DNA of 64,000 nucleotides, from assembly GCF_000011305.1 (NCBI RefSeq), contig NC_004369.1, forward strand, positions 372,001 through 436,000, in the 5' to 3' direction. Below are positions 3,116 to 12,212 of the stretch, in pieces (position 1 is the first letter of the stretch; every line of letters starts with the position of its first letter). The notes beneath the pieces are model-generated. The model was not told the origin of the DNA and did no database searches. It saw nothing but the letters and a program-made list of their open reading frames with translations. The position numbers were made by a program, and so were the translations under genes. This stretch comes from Corynebacterium efficiens YS-314 (GTDB lineage Bacteria; Actinomycetota; Actinomycetes; Mycobacteriales; Mycobacteriaceae).

Positions 3116-6075
<2,960 letters not shown>

Positions 6076-6080
<5 letters not shown>

Positions 6081-6897
6081 GATAAACGGCTACGACCCTA
6101 ACCACTACGAGAGGACCTGGAATTTTGAAATCTTCCTCAGAGAAATCGCCCCCGTATAGGGCACCCAGCGACCCATATAACTTCTCAGGTTTCATTTGTC
6201 GCCTCATTGCACGAGTCATTCCGCCCGAAAAGAATCGTTCAAGAGAATAGCTTCCACCCTCGGGTTTAAAAGTCTCAATCAGACCGAGAATCGTTTTATC
6301 ATCTTCCAGGTCATCTTCAGAGTAATTTCTCACAAGTAGGTCAGAATCTAAGAGGGCAATTATTTTGTACTCATCACCCGGTTCCTCCAGCTTTGACAAA
6401 ACGATCTTCCGGTTTGAAGTCGAATCTGGGGAAATGAAACTGGCGATCACTTGAGGAGGCATTTCTGAGGCGTGCATGATGTTGGGATCCTTAACCATCA
6501 GCTGGATGAGGGATCCCACCGTGGAACCAATCTCAGTTACCGGTGAGATCTCCCAATCACCTTCGATCTCCACCAAAGATGATTTCCGTATTGCTCCATC
6601 CCCTAGATTAGTAAGCTCATTCTCTTGGTAAAGACGGTCGATTAGTTCATTGAGGGCTGATCCTGGGTGCGCCTTGATTGTTCGCTTCTGGAAAATCTCG
6701 GCTTCAGCACCGCCTCCGATGTTTATCCCTGCGGAACCGATTCCGGCGATTGATGCCCTGCCTTCAAGTCCGCCCTTTTTATCGGTGAAGTCACGGGCAG
6801 TGACTTCTACTTCTGTATCAACTTCTATTCCCCACCGATTAGCAATGGGGGTGAGGATAGCTTTATCGATGTAAACGGGATCTCGATAGATTGTCAC
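6076..6897 (-). CDS. Hypothetical protein, 3' end altered by the IS1380 element
   Basis: The 273-residue soluble, acidic protein begins MTIYRDPVYIDKAILTPIANRWGIEV. It has a Gly-rich segment at about 45-62 (GIGSAGINIGGGAEAEIF) and no membrane segment. I do not recognise a characterised family; the N-terminal Y-x-D-x2-x-I-D-K pattern only loosely recalls DUF6414-type proteins. The TAA stop lies inside the terminal inverted repeat of the neighbouring IS element, so the natural C-terminus is probably lost. It sits in an accessory block with a NYN protein and an ATPase/nuclease pair. Confidence 0.6.
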
Positions 6898-7261: not shown

Positions 7262-8107
7262 ATGATGTCGGGTAAAAGCGTAGATAAATCGCGCGCAAAG
7301 AAGAACTCTCATGGATCTCGCTCGTCTCAGCAACGGGTGCGTGGTTCGGAATCAGAACGTCAAGTGCAGTTACGCCCTGTAGTCACCGCGATTCTGGTTG
7401 ATGGCGGTTTTTATCGTAGGCGGGCCAACACACTGTTCGGAAAAAAGGGGCCGGAGGACAGGGCTACCGAGCTGGTCAAATACGCCAGGCGTCACATCGC
7501 TCAGTCTCGCAGCAGTCTCTATCGAATTTTCTATTACGATTGTCCGCCCTCGGAAAAAGTTCTTTTTCATCCCCTGACACGGACACAAGTCAACCTCGCC
7601 AAATCAGAGCAATTCGAATGGACGAATGCTTTCTTCGAAGCGCTGACCCATAAGCGAAAAGTTGCATTGCGTAGAGGTGAGGAGCTCGAAACCCAGCAGG
7701 GCTACATCTTGAAGCCGGATCCATTAAAGAAGCTTCTCAACAATACTCTCACCCTGGATGAATTAACCGAGAGGGATTTCCAACTTGAGATCACTCAAAA
7801 GGGTGTGGACATGCGGATTGGGTTAGATATTGCTTCCCTAGCCGAGAGGCAAACGGTGAACCAGATCGTGATGATCACAGGTGACAGCGATTTCGTGCCC
7901 GCCGCTAAACATGCGCGTCGCGAGGGCATAGATTTCATTCTTGACCCGATGTGGGCACCCATTGCCAAAAGTCTGAGCGAACATGTTGACGGCATTCGGC
8001 AGTGTGTATTCAAGAAGCCCGAGAATGAAAAGGATCCCCTGCATATAAACCGGTTGTCAGAGGCACCTTCCAATCAACCCCGCCCTGAGGATGACGAAGA
8101 GCTTTAA
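7262..8107 (+). CDS. NYN (PIN-like) domain protein, putative ribonuclease
   Basis: The 281-residue protein has a NYN/LabA-type PIN-like fold from about residue 40 to 245. The acidic motifs are ILVDGGF at 43-49, VDMRIGLDIA at about 180-190 and ITGDSDFVPAAKHARREG at about 204-221, matching the metal-binding aspartates of NYN RNases. A basic, Ser/Arg-rich tail of about 40 residues precedes the domain. Such proteins cleave RNA in the few cases studied; the substrate here is unknown. Two consecutive ATG codons (7262 and 7265) could start it. It lies in the accessory block upstream of the ATPase/nuclease pair. Confidence 0.8.
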   Translation: MMSGKSVDKSRAKKNSHGSRSSQQRVRGSESERQVQLRPVVTAILVDGGFYRRRANTLFGKKGPEDRATELVKYARRHIAQSRSSLYRIFYYDCPPSEKVLFHPLTRTQVNLAKSEQFEWTNAFFEALTHKRKVALRRGEELETQQGYILKPDPLKKLLNNTLTLDELTERDFQLEITQKGVDMRIGLDIASLAERQTVNQIVMITGDSDFVPAAKHARREGIDFILDPMWAPIAKSLSEHVDGIRQCVFKKPENEKDPLHINRLSEAPSNQPRPEDDEEL

Positions 8108-8274
8108 TGAAAATTCATACCCTAGCGAGTAGAAGTATAAGAGCTGGATGCTCCGTATGCCGTGGGGGAGTTGTCAGTCTATGAATCACAATTCCATGTC
8201 GATTCCACCCTCTAGCATGAAATACATTGTCCTTACCTGGCCCCGTCCATATTGTGGGGCCAAGGAGGTCCACA

Positions 8275-9219
8275 ATGAACATGCAACCGAGCGAAACCAC
8301 ACCAAACTCAGGTTCCACCGCGGCTGGCACGACTCATCAGACCGCGAATCAAAACCGCCATGGTGGAGCGAATTCCACAGACACCCAGGATGACCGCGCT
8401 GATCACACCCGCCCAGCTGACACCACCGATGTTGGCTGGGCGATGCCTATTCTTACGGTCATCGTCACCGCTTTCGCCATCTTCACCGCATTCTTCGGCA
8501 GTGGCGCGATCGGTGGCACTCCGATCGCAGAGGCTGCCGGCGGGGCACTGTCAGCAGATGCCACACCATTGGCACCAGCCAGCACCGCCTTCAGCATTTG
8601 GAGTGTGATCTACGCAGGTCTTGCAGGTTATGCCATCTGGCAACTATTCCCCGCAGCCCGGCGTTCGCCCAGGCAGAAACACCTACGCCCCTGGGCGATT
8701 GTTTCTGTCGTGCTCAACTCTGTCTGGATCTGGACCGTGCAATTCGACCAAGTCTGGGCGTCCGTGCTGGTGATCACAGCCTTGCTCGTGGTCCTCATCC
8801 GCATCATGTACATCCTGGGTGGGCCGCGCACGGGGGGCTGGCCTGACCTGATTTTCACCGAGGCAACTTTCGGCTTGTACTTCGGTTGGGTGTTGGTGGC
8901 TACTTTCGCCAACCTCTTCGCTTATTTCTCCGCCGAGGGACTCGACGCTTTTACCACCATCCCGGTCGGCGTTGGCGGAATCGTCCTGGCCGGACTGATC
9001 GGCGTTGTCGCAGCCATTATCGACGGCGGCCGCATCGCCCCGGCCCTCGCCACCTCCTGGGGCCTGGCCTGGATTGCGGTGGCGCGCACCACCGGTGCCT
9101 ATGAATCCCAGGCACTTGTGATCACGGCTGCCGCAGCCTCTGCAGTTGTCCTGCTGACCGCCATTATCGCCTGGTCACTTAGGCGCTCTGCGAGCACACC
9201 CGCGGTGATGACGCAGTGA
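8275..9219 (+). CDS. TspO/MBR-family membrane protein
   Basis: The ATG at 8275 is preceded by a strong AAGGAGGT, giving 314 residues. The first 65 are hydrophilic and low in complexity (Thr, Asn, Asp-rich), then about seven hydrophobic segments follow. FSIWSVIYAGLAGYAIWQL in the second segment and NSVWIWTVQFDQVWASV in the next are typical of TspO/MBR (tryptophan-rich sensory) relatives, although classic TspO has five helices and about 160 residues. The role may be transport or tetrapyrrole-linked; this is not established for this branch. It is a single-gene unit. Confidence 0.65.
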   Translation: MNMQPSETTPNSGSTAAGTTHQTANQNRHGGANSTDTQDDRADHTRPADTTDVGWAMPILTVIVTAFAIFTAFFGSGAIGGTPIAEAAGGALSADATPLAPASTAFSIWSVIYAGLAGYAIWQLFPAARRSPRQKHLRPWAIVSVVLNSVWIWTVQFDQVWASVLVITALLVVLIRIMYILGGPRTGGWPDLIFTEATFGLYFGWVLVATFANLFAYFSAEGLDAFTTIPVGVGGIVLAGLIGVVAAIIDGGRIAPALATSWGLAWIAVARTTGAYESQALVITAAAASAVVLLTAIIAWSLRRSASTPAVMTQ

Positions 9220-9306
9220 GTGCCGTGCTCAGCGGAGTGGAAGGATCCCTTCGGTTAGCGGGTGGTATACCCTGTTTCGTTTTCTCACTATCCGTAGGAT
9301 GACACC

Positions 9307-10356
9307 ATGCCTACCTATCCAATCTCGCGGATCCGAGCGAAGTCTTTTGGCCCGTTCAAAGACATAGACGTTGAGTTGACTGATGGCCTCAATGTAATTG
9401 TCGGTGATAATGCAACAGGGAAATCCCAACTTCTCAAGTTGATGTATTCCTGCACAAAGGCCGTAAAGGATTCGGAGACCCTCACTAAGCGTGATCTAAG
9501 CGGGGGTATAGCGTCGAAACTTATTGGTGTCTTTCGTCCCCAACGTTTGGGCCGTCTTACCCGTCGTACCCAAGGAAGAGCAAAGGCAGAAGTATCCCTC
9601 AAGTATGCGGGTATTGCTGATCCTCTTGAGTTTTCCTTCTCATCCCCATCTTCCCGTGAAGTGACGATCGGAAAAATGCCAGACCGTCCTCTGACGGATG
9701 AGCCGGTTCTGCTTCCCACCCACGAGCTTCTGACCCTCGCCAGTAGTTTCCTGGGTTTGTACAGCACCTACGACACCGGATTTGAAGAAACCTGGAAGGA
9801 CACCACGGAGCTCTTACTGCGTCCCGCGCTTCTCGGGCCACGTGGAAATCAGGCGAATGCGATGCTTGAGCCTTTCTCCAATCTCCTCCAAGGGGGAACC
9901 GTGGTTGAGGAAGGGGGGGAGTTCTACTTGAAACAACCAGGAGTCGGCACTATCGAAGCCCCGCTTCTTGCCGAGGGGCACCGAAAACTGGCGATGCTTG
10001 TGCGCCTCATCTCCAATGGCGTCCTCCTTGAGGGGGGCTACCTATTCTGGGACGAACCGGAGGCCAATTTGAATCCTGCATCCCAGCGAGCCATAGCGCA
10101 CGCCCTGGTGCATCTTGCCAACCATGGAACACAGATTGTGGTGGCGACCCACAGTATGTTCCTACTTCGTGAGATTCAGATGAGCAGTGAGAAGATCAGC
10201 CCACGGTTCATCGGCTTGAACCGGCAGCAGGATAGCGAACAACCGATGGCTGCAGCGCAAGTGGTGGCCCAGACGAGCGACGATCTCGACGATTTGGATT
10301 ACGTCGCTGCTTTGGAGGCTGAGGTTGAGCAGGCCAATCGGTACCTGGGGTGGTAG
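9307..10356 (+). CDS. ABC-type AAA ATPase (AAA_21/OLD-like), putative defence ATPase
   Basis: The 349-residue soluble ATPase starts at ATG 9307. Walker A GDNATGKS is at residues 33-40, a signature-like LAEGHRKLAML at about 222, Walker B YLFWDEPEANLNP at about 245-257, and the switch histidine in ATHS at about 281. This is the compact ABC-ATPase layout seen in SMC/OLD-like defence ATPases (PtuA of Septu, AriA of PARIS are comparators), without a TOPRIM or coiled-coil insert. The following gene begins 5 bases after the stop and encodes a putative nuclease, so the two probably work together. Confidence 0.85.
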   Translation: MPTYPISRIRAKSFGPFKDIDVELTDGLNVIVGDNATGKSQLLKLMYSCTKAVKDSETLTKRDLSGGIASKLIGVFRPQRLGRLTRRTQGRAKAEVSLKYAGIADPLEFSFSSPSSREVTIGKMPDRPLTDEPVLLPTHELLTLASSFLGLYSTYDTGFEETWKDTTELLLRPALLGPRGNQANAMLEPFSNLLQGGTVVEEGGEFYLKQPGVGTIEAPLLAEGHRKLAMLVRLISNGVLLEGGYLFWDEPEANLNPASQRAIAHALVHLANHGTQIVVATHSMFLLREIQMSSEKISPRFIGLNRQQDSEQPMAAAQVVAQTSDDLDDLDYVAALEAEVEQANRYLGW

Positions 10357-10361
10357 ATCTA

Positions 10362-10913
10362 ATGTCTCAACCGAAAAATATCCTGAACGTGGACGGTACC
10401 ATTTTTGAATTCCCGAAACACTGGCGTGTTTCGATATTCGACGAGTGGGAGCAATTCAAGAGACCAGCAAGCGAGCTGCATCTCAAAGGATGTGACATCG
10501 TTGCTTTTGATGGCGAGACCTTGTGGCTGATTGAAGTCAAGGACTACACCTACCTTGATGCATCGATTCCGAAAGACCTGACTCAGATTGTGGGGCAGAA
10601 AGCGGCCGGAACAATGGCGCTGTTGTATGCTCTTGAACGCCGGGAAGCCGAGAGCCACGCGGTTGAATTTGCCAGGGCATGCTCCCAGACAACACGAATC
10701 AACCTCGTTCTTCATATCGAGGTTAAAGACGGCGGACGGAAAGAACACGTTCCCACTCTTCTCGCTCCCTTCAAGAACAAGCTGAGCAGCGTGGGCAGGA
10801 GCCTGGGTTTGGCTAAATCCCTGATTTCCTCCAGTGCTGTATCTTCCTCGAACATCCCATGGGATGCCCGTAGAGACCCACAAACGCGAGGTCTCCATTC
10901 AGATCGACGTTAA
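10362..10913 (+). CDS. PD-(D/E)XK-like nuclease paired with the ATPase
   Basis: The 183-residue protein has a clear PD-(D/E)XK core: Asp in GCDIVAF (about residue 44), then LWLIEVKDY carrying E-x-K at 58-60, then GQKAAGTMALLYAL as the usual following helix. The ATG at 10362 is preferred over an in-frame GTG at 10350 because GGGGTGG precedes it at suitable spacing. The ATPase stop is 5 bases upstream. The C-terminal 30 residues are Ser/Arg-rich and look disordered. No fully matching named family is known to me, so the nuclease role is inferred from the motif. Confidence 0.75.
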   Translation: MSQPKNILNVDGTIFEFPKHWRVSIFDEWEQFKRPASELHLKGCDIVAFDGETLWLIEVKDYTYLDASIPKDLTQIVGQKAAGTMALLYALERREAESHAVEFARACSQTTRINLVLHIEVKDGGRKEHVPTLLAPFKNKLSSVGRSLGLAKSLISSSAVSSSNIPWDARRDPQTRGLHSDRR

Positions 10914-10943
10914 TCAGATCCGATGAAGAGCCTCAACCGACGC

Positions 10944-12212
10944 TCAAATTAACGATTCTGGGGCGCTCAAACCCCCCACCCCCACCACCGGCGCGTTCTT
11001 CCCGAACAGCGCCACCAAGTGCACAACCAGGCCCACCAGCGGGCCAACAATCAACGCCAGCGCAGCGGCCGTCGCCAGCTCCCACGGCCCCATGAGAATG
11101 CCCACGGCAACGACCGTCGCCACGACCCAGCCGGCCAGGTACAGGCCGTGCCGATCGTAGGCGATCGTCGCGCAGCCGGTCACCATCAGGGTCGCGGTCG
11201 TGGTCGCGCCCAGCGTCAGCGCCGCCAGCAGACTGCCCGGCACGGCGAAGATCTCCTGGCGCAGGATCAACTCAAACAGCCACGGCCCGATCAGCCGCGC
11301 CAGCCCGGAGCCGACCAGACCCACAGCCCACACGATCGCCAGCGGTCCCGCAAGCGCTGCCCACGGCGAGCGACCCTCCTGAACAAAGCGCACAAACCGC
11401 ACAATGATCGCCGACTGGAACTGCTGCAGCGGCACCAACAGTGGAGCGCGCGTCAGCGTCACTGCATAGATCACGGCCGCAGCCGTCACAGCTTGCCCGG
11501 TAGTATCCGGGTTGGTGAGTTTCACGAGCGTCGGAAAGCCTGTGATCAGCACGGCCGTCGAGCCGGATGCCGCCATCGCGGTGAGTGCCTGGCGCAGAAA
11601 CACCCGCCCCGACACATCCGTCACGGCCCCTAACGCCGAACGCGCCGAGCGTGACAGCCCCACGATCACCATCCACGACACCGCACCCACCACGGTGATG
11701 AACAGGAACGCCAGCAGCTGGAATCCCAGCAGCCACGCCACCACGGCCAGAATCATGCGTACGCCGGTGTCCAGGGAGATCAGTGCGGCGTACTGCTTCC
11801 ACAGCTGGCACCCGGACAGGATACCGGCCACGGTCGCCTGCACCGCGTAGCTGCCTAAGCCCACGGCAAGCATGCCGACGCCGATGCCCTGGTGCTCGCT
11901 CAGCAGCCGTCCGATCCATAAGGGAGCGGTCAGCCCGAGCACCACCGCGGTCACCGCGGCGGCCCCCAGCGAAAACACAATCGGCCGGACAGCAACACCA
12001 GAACCAGAACCAGCACCCCGCGCCGCCGACACCGCCCTCGTCGTCTCCTGGGTCAGCCCCGTCAGCACACCGGTGCCCGCGAAGAACAGCCCCCAGTAGG
12101 CGGTGAACTCCTCGGTCAGTGTGCCGGAGGAGCCGAGCGCCCAGGCGGCGATGATGATGACCACAAAACCGGAGATGCCGGCGATGATGGTGGCCAGGGT
12201 CAGGTATCTCAT
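10944..12212 (-). CDS. Polytopic membrane protein, flippase-like (polysaccharide biosynthesis type)
   Basis: The 422-residue protein is almost entirely hydrophobic, with about twelve membrane segments and short loops. The N-terminus (IIAGISGFVVIIIAAWALGSSG..TEEFTAYWGLFFAGTGVLTGLTQE) resembles Wzx/MATE-like polysaccharide exporters of the MOP superfamily. The substrate is unknown. Its start overlaps the stop of the upstream M1 peptidase gene by 4 bases, so the pair is translationally coupled. It is convergent with the ATPase/nuclease pair, 30 bases away. Confidence 0.6.
   Translation of the reverse strand: MRYLTLATIIAGISGFVVIIIAAWALGSSGTLTEEFTAYWGLFFAGTGVLTGLTQETTRAVSAARGAGSGSGVAVRPIVFSLGAAAVTAVVLGLTAPLWIGRLLSEHQGIGVGMLAVGLGSYAVQATVAGILSGCQLWKQYAALISLDTGVRMILAVVAWLLGFQLLAFLFITVVGAVSWMVIVGLSRSARSALGAVTDVSGRVFLRQALTAMAASGSTAVLITGFPTLVKLTNPDTTGQAVTAAAVIYAVTLTRAPLLVPLQQFQSAIIVRFVRFVQEGRSPWAALAGPLAIVWAVGLVGSGLARLIGPWLFELILRQEIFAVPGSLLAALTLGATTTATLMVTGCATIAYDRHGLYLAGWVVATVVAVGILMGPWELATAAALALIVGPLVGLVVHLVALFGKNAPVVGVGGLSAPESLI

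Follow-up and report, generated by a model that had tools for sequence, protein, structure and literature searches.

An intact, solitary copy of the two-gene defence candidate HEC-02 in Corynebacterium efficiens YS-314

We analysed a window of 64,000 nucleotides of Corynebacterium efficiens YS-314 (contig NC_004369.1, positions 372,001 to 436,000), and all coordinates below count from its first letter. Two intact open reading frames follow each other on the + strand. The first (9307..10356) encodes a PtuA-like ATPase of the ABC/AAA_21 type (349 aa) and the second (10362..10913) a putative nuclease of the PD-(D/E)XK type (183 aa); both are assigned below to HEC-02. The TAG of the ATPase gene ends at 10356 and the ATG of the nuclease gene is at 10362, leaving a gap of 5 bases. 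The nuclease has an alternative in-frame start, GTG at 10350, which would make it overlap the ATPase gene and give a protein of 187 aa. The 3.2-Mb genome contains one full-length copy of each gene. A second ATPase match elsewhere in this genome (48 residues, G000:C3:2818420) proved to be a fragment of generic ABC type and was left out.

The original prediction had described a compact ABC-type ATPase with the motifs GDNATGKS (containing K39), FWDEPEANLNP and ATHS, and all three were confirmed in the intact frame. To place them we used an alignment of 11 ATPases, consisting of the window copy and ten others with 27–66% identity to it. Walker A (GDNATGKS, 9403..9426, + strand, residues 33–40) has G33, N35, G38 and K39 invariant in all 11 sequences. 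The Walker B and D-loop segment LFWDEPEANLNP (10042..10077, + strand, residues 246–257) has seven invariant positions (D249, E250, P251, E252, N254, L255 and P257), and the H-loop residues T281-H282 (10147..10152, + strand) are likewise the same in 11/11. There is also an ABC signature-like stretch, AEGHRKLA (9970..9993, + strand, residues 222–229), with E223, G224 and K227 invariant throughout; its first six residues (AEGHRK, 222–227) were missing from the earlier list of motifs. Against Pfam the protein matched AAA_21 (E=2.6e-17), AAA_15 and related generic families, and nothing else.

The downstream protein was compared with its counterparts in other genomes, giving a set of 17 proteins in which the other 16 are 13–51% identical to the window copy. 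A 183-residue protein with a D...E-x-K core had been predicted 5 bases after the ATPase, and this held: the core residues are D45 (10494..10496, + strand), which is D in 16/17 proteins and E in one, and E58-V-K60 (10533..10541, + strand), where both E and K are found in 17/17. Two further residues belong to the conserved set of these downstream proteins. D27, an acidic residue of helix 1 (10440..10442, + strand), is D in 16/17 proteins, the window copy included, and K80, a lysine in the helix after the core strands (10599..10601, + strand), is conserved in all 17. The pattern [DE]-x(9-16)-hydrophobic-E-hydrophobic-K, which was composed after inspection of the alignment, occurs in 17/17 proteins; 1000 shuffles gave it in 1.3 proteins on average and in 8/17 at most.

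No Pfam family reached its cut-off for the nuclease (the sub-threshold matches were pPIWI_RE_REase at E=0.12 and Hjc at E=0.2), and NCBIfam gave no match at E≤1. A single-chain AlphaFold2 model made from 9 sequences had a pLDDT of 83.5. The order of its elements (helix 26–33, strands 46–49 and 53–62, helix 73–92, strand 112–121, helix 127–147 and strand 152–157) fits the alpha-beta-beta-beta-alpha-beta core of PD-(D/E)XK enzymes, with D45 just ahead of the first core strand and E58 and K60 on the second; the conserved D...(D/E)xK of the core strands is thus present. When the model was searched with Foldseek, Hjc Holliday junction resolvases came first (best E=0.01) and there was nothing at E≤0.001. 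In a VIA alignment, AF1548, a CdiA toxin domain, Cdn1, FokI, McrBC, Can2 and Card1 were found at Z 5.4–6.7, and unrelated folds (acetyl-CoA carboxylase at Z 5.5, Rho/Rag GTPases) appeared in the same list at similar or slightly lower Z. Since unrelated folds score about as well, the predicted PD-(D/E)XK assignment draws on the conserved residues and the element order more than on Z; these fit the class, and the match to any subfamily is weak.

The actinobacterial members of the nuclease set have a C-terminal tail, which in the window copy is PWDARRDPQTRGLHSDR (10857..10907, + strand). All 6 intact actinobacterial nucleases (the window copy, L003, L006, L007, L008 and L017) end in HxDR, the window copy having one further R after it, and the other 7 nucleases in the 13-row alignment lack this tail. 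The tail end, residues 179–183, has a pLDDT under 50 in the nuclease model.

Profile searches against PADLOC-DB v2.0.0 identified the pair. The ATPase matched the HEC-02 model PDLC04146 at E=8.2e-103 over residues 8–348, and PDLC04213 and PDLC04214 also matched; the next system for the ATPase was PARIS, with its AriA model at 7e-18. The nuclease matched the HEC-02 model PDLC04145 at E=3.7e-17 over residues 13–124, and five more HEC-02 models matched it more weakly, four of them at E≤0.01. The same two models recover the wider families, PDLC04146 matching 11/11 ATPases at E≤1e-15 and PDLC04145 matching 11/13 nucleases at E≤0.01 (the window protein counted in both cases), while each of them matched 0/14 well-known control genomes. 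The window pair is thus an intact and solitary copy of the catalogued two-gene defence candidate HEC-02. The original prediction knew of no named system with this pairing and had proposed a PADLOC search as a check on novelty; because that search returned a known system for both proteins, the claim of an undescribed pairing is refuted. Dyads of an ABC ATPase and a PD-(D/E)XK nuclease are also in print, as far as the available part of PMC12839542 shows.

The letters of the HEC-02 models are swapped within PADLOC. The ATPase is 'B' in PDLC04146 and 'A' in PDLC04213 and PDLC04214, and the nuclease is 'A' in PDLC04145 and 'B' in the other matched models (range compared: PDLC04213, PDLC04214 and 04220–04229).

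The window copy shares with HEC-02 the arrangement as two adjacent genes, both best matched by HEC-02 models, and the protein sizes are similar (ATPase models of 337–344 positions, nuclease models of 170–199). It differs in three respects: its immediate neighbours are a TspO-like gene and a membrane-protein gene; the surrounding open reading frames of the window that were searched or read by eye include no Hma helicase or methylase; and its nuclease diverges from the models, the best stretch being residues 13–124 of 183, and carries the extra C-terminal tail. According to the accessible text of PMC10855318, HEC stands for 'Hma embedded candidates'. Several HECs, HEC-06 among them, were antiviral in assays (PMC12988326, in the excerpt consulted), and HEC-05 and HEC-06 are named in the consulted portion of PMC11411939, which cites Payne et al. 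2024. For HEC-02 itself no report of activity was found among the papers listed from the open-licence, non-preprint literature, and we found no mention of an ATPase/PD-(D/E)XK pairing in the part of the DefensePredictor paper that was available.

In a profile search of solved chains with the ATPase, one chain named just 'AAA family ATPase' came first (1.1e-13), then PtuA proteins of retron Ec78 and Septu (E 7.7e-13 and weaker), and then an ABC transporter ATPase (1.8e-11). A single-chain AlphaFold2 model of the ATPase had a pLDDT of 78.0, and its top Foldseek match was Septu PtuA (8eea, E=2.5e-13, TM about 0.5, rmsd 11.4), after which came retron PtuA and then SMC and Rad50 heads from about 3e-11. 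With 2.5e-13 against about 3e-11, PtuA is only slightly ahead of the SMC and Rad50 heads in this modelled comparison, and it superposes loosely. The predicted architecture of ATPase plus nuclease thus resembles Septu with the HNH protein exchanged.

The presence of Rad50 and SMC heads among the ATPase matches, and of Hjc among the fold and sequence matches of the nuclease, would also be expected of a housekeeping DNA repair pair, in which a RecF/SbcCD-like ATPase worked with an Hjc-like junction nuclease. Against this stand the distribution and the setting of the genes: the pair genes are carried by only 6–7 of the 201 genomes sampled from the genus (the window genome counted), three relatives have an empty site and the GC content is lower than that of the flanking genes. 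We therefore regard a repair function as very improbable.

Comparison with named systems places the pair close to, and distinct from, several of them. It shares with Septu (PtuAB) and the retron Ec78/Eco7 effectors an ATPase accompanied by a small nuclease, PtuA being the closest relative of the ATPase by profile and predicted fold. It differs in that the nuclease appears to be of the PD-(D/E)XK type and theirs is HNH (no PtuB-type HNH match was found in the second gene, which has D..ExK instead), and in that the ATPase has 349 aa as opposed to 465–550 in most solved PtuA chains. Although PtuA is the nearest solved fold, the HEC-02 models outscore the PtuA models by more than 90 orders of magnitude. 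Unlike retrons, the window has no reverse transcriptase match among the neighbours sent to Pfam. PARIS (AriA/AriB) also has an ABC-type ATPase of the AAA_21/AAA_15 kind adjoining a nuclease, but the AriA model falls behind the HEC-02 model by 85 orders of magnitude, and no TOPRIM match of the AriB type was found in the second gene with Pfam, PADLOC or NCBIfam. Finally, OLD-ABC ATPases paired with HNH, PD-(D/E)XK or PIN nucleases occur in BREX and related systems, earlier reports being noted there (PMC12839542, in the part seen). The window pair can be likened to the OLD-ABC/PD-(D/E)XK dyads by their description in that part, as the same pairing of enzyme classes, and one related pair precedes a large methylase-like gene (L029, see below); the difference is that no BREX gene was matched beside the window copy.

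To examine how regularly the two genes occur together, ATPase relatives were gathered from the genus, the class, plasmids, phage records and virus-binned contigs, and a locus from Corynebacterium lowii was added that had been found via the nuclease. After removal of copies and of 11 short partial matches, 21 distinct ATPase loci remained; three named phyla are represented, besides virus-binned contigs. The partial matches were the viral loci L033–L043 (eleven), where the ATPase match was limited to about 37–66 N-terminal residues; the copies were L032, a copy of L031, and L027, a near copy of L028 in which the downstream frame ends early after about 68 shared residues. An intact D/E..ExK protein lies directly downstream of the ATPase at 17/21 loci, and in all 17 the first start codon of the nuclease overlaps the ATPase gene or follows it by no more than 6 bases. 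Named hosts of intact pairs include C. lowii, Paracoccus and two Pseudanabaena. The survey of distant genomes suggested with the original prediction thus bore out the co-occurrence, and comparison of the sequences shows that the ATPase and nuclease genes form a unit that recurs in distantly related bacteria.

At one of the remaining loci the nuclease is frame-broken (G180), and three have no detectable nuclease: G148, a Sulfuricystis plasmid and a gut phage scaffold (L022). A tblastn search with the 17 nucleases at E≤1e-3 found nothing in L013 (the G148 locus), L062, L018 or L022; a remnant of the nuclease N-terminus suspected by eye in L013 was not upheld by it. At L022 the frame of the ATPase continues into a region that codes, on the other strand, for a small protein, which we take to resemble a transposon protein, so the missing nuclease may here be an interruption. 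Two genomes of the genus hold incomplete copies: in G180 (L009/L016) both genes are frame-broken, and in G148 (L013) the ATPase stands alone.

The pair is rare and patchily distributed. In the genus sample of 201 genomes (window genome counted), 7 carry the ATPase and 6 of these carry the nuclease as well; none has the nuclease alone. The class sample gave the ATPase in 2/394 genomes, again counting the window genome, and in the phylum sample the nuclease profile found 1/396, which was the window genome. A single nuclease query of genome contigs returned just C. lowii, by coordinates the same locus as G083. The nuclease query of virus-binned contigs found no relative, and the viral adjacencies were therefore found from the ATPase side.

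The one genome of the genus sample in which the ATPase occurs without the nuclease (G148), the reverse never being seen, would be expected if the ATPase restrains the nuclease; the number is tiny, and the observation fits restraint. The Sulfuricystis plasmid, whose ATPase likewise has no detectable nuclease, agrees with this. It could also be read in terms of a toxin-antitoxin or addiction module, with the ATPase as antitoxin of a nuclease toxin that stabilizes a mobile segment and phage defence secondary or absent. The ATPase without detectable nuclease in G148 and Sulfuricystis, never the opposite in the genus sample, and the ATPase relatives on 4 plasmid records speak for such a module. However, the full catalytic ABC set is kept, which a simple antitoxin would presumably not need, and some of the neighbourhoods are defence-like. 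We consider a pure addiction role unlikely, and note that the toxin-antitoxin and defence readings overlap, depositors having named the PARIS ATPase 'AriA antitoxin'.

The pair occupies a site that varies between relatives. In three of them (G044, G117 and G046) the two genes that flank it are adjacent and the pair is absent. The left flank is a TspO/MBR-like gene (8227..9219, + strand; TspO_MBR E=7.3e-05 and 23.0 bits, just under the Pfam cut-off of 24) and the right flank a membrane protein gene (10944..12212, − strand), flippase-like by eye and without a Pfam match at E≤0.1; both are common to the relatives. Matches to the relatives' flanks end at 9174–9191 and restart at 10959–11020, and the inserted segment thus has an approximate extent of 9192..10958. 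In the three genomes without the pair the restart is at 10982–11020, with 22 to 177 bases between the two flank matches. The longest word common to the two junctions (9150–9320 versus 10850–11010) was 7 bases, and therefore no target-site duplication was seen. The pair genes have a GC content of 54.5 and 51.4%, below that of the two flanking genes (61.1 and 67.0%) yet near the mean of the whole window (56.6%).

A fourth relative (G156) has another pair in the same gap (L057:10999-12500), consisting of a DO-GTPase2-like protein (389 aa) and a 111-aa protein. The 111-aa partner has no Pfam match and neither protein hits PADLOC at E≤1e-5; an undescribed defence pair is possible. Upstream of the TspO-like gene, G156 carries a GAP1-N2 protein and then a second DO-GTPase protein (L057:4480-8687), and G044 has type III-A retron genes (L056:5461-8256; RT E=4.9e-145, PRTase E=3.9e-48), which sit between the TspO-like gene and a gene read by eye as rfbB. 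In the window this upstream region holds a DDE transposase, a DUF6414 protein (6076–6897, − strand, GC 47.8%) and an NYN-domain protein (7262–8107, + strand, GC 50.8%). The genes for the latter two had no DNA match in the stretches L056–L059 of four relatives, and their products may be further cargo with a role in defence or conflict. The pair had been placed within a variable block with the NYN protein, an orphan protein (DUF6414) and an IS element (the DDE transposase); these are present, but the TspO-like gene separates them from the pair. The slot is empty in some genomes and filled by HEC-02 or by a double-GTPase pair in others, and two relatives have retron or GAP1/GTPase genes just upstream of it; it has the look of a small defence hotspot.

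Some of the other copies also have defence genes nearby. In C. lowii (L003) the pair adjoins type III restriction-modification genes, the restriction gene being split over two open reading frames, and AbiD lies a few kb from the frame-broken copy of G180 (L065). On one virus-binned contig (L029:4971-10139) the pair directly precedes an open reading frame of up to 1241 aa that is methylase-like by eye; this order suggests a BREX- or type IIG-like operon. No defence neighbour was noticed on reading L060–L064, where the family search covered one protein (DUF2891, in L060).

The DNA methylase neighbours in L003, L018 and L029 (in L029 by eye), and the moderate resemblance of the predicted nuclease fold to chains of McrBC and FokI (Z 5.0–6.1), would suit a restriction-like barrier to entry, where the pair cut incoming DNA directly by its modification or ends, as McrBC and GmrSD do, without suicide of the cell. 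Against such a barrier, Pfam matched no DNA-recognition domain in either protein, and the ATPase is PtuA/ABC-like and not a McrB-type GTPase; it seems to us improbable, somewhat more so than the addiction module.

We consider it probable that the pair is a member of HEC-02 that works like Septu with another nuclease, as an anti-phage defence. An anti-phage role is likely because the pair is conserved across distant bacteria, lies at a variable site and has a Septu-like ATPase, so that of the 'possible undescribed defence system' first proposed, the defence role survives and the undescribed status does not. The defence reading is favoured by the top HEC-02 hits, the pairing, the likeness to PtuA, the patchiness, the empty sites and the defence-like neighbours; the weak fold matches of the nuclease, the small lead of PtuA, the 3/21 loci without a nuclease, the genomes in which no defence neighbour was noticed (L060–L064) and the GC content near the window mean count against it.

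By analogy with Septu, retron and PARIS systems, we infer that the ATPase would act as sensor and restraint and the nuclease as effector. The ATPase would dimerize or oligomerize, bind the nuclease and keep it inactive. A phage product, or a nucleic-acid state made by the phage, would shift the nucleotide state of the ATPase, and the nuclease would then be released or switched on to cut nucleic acid. PD-(D/E)XK enzymes favour DNA as substrate, and DNA is the more likely target; tRNA is possible. Septu has been reported to cut tRNA-Tyr (PMC13096335, in the section available). Cleavage would stop phage replication, probably at a cost to the cell.

A more specific proposal can be offered tentatively, and we lean against it on balance. 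HEC-02 might be a further branch of PtuA-like ATPase/effector systems, in which HNH was swapped for a PD-(D/E)XK nuclease with an Hjc-like active site (D27, D45, E58 and K60), and actinobacterial members might have gained in addition a conserved WxxRR...HxDR peptide that docks the nuclease either to its partner ATPase or to a host factor specific to the lineage.

We make no claim to discovery of the pairing itself. What is new is a further copy of HEC-02, a catalogued and poorly understood candidate, that is compact (1.6 kb), intact and located at a mapped empty site. Its genus, Corynebacterium, also includes a laboratory strain for which phages are known. The window copy is therefore a practical place to learn how phage is recognized by HEC-02 and which substrate its nuclease attacks.
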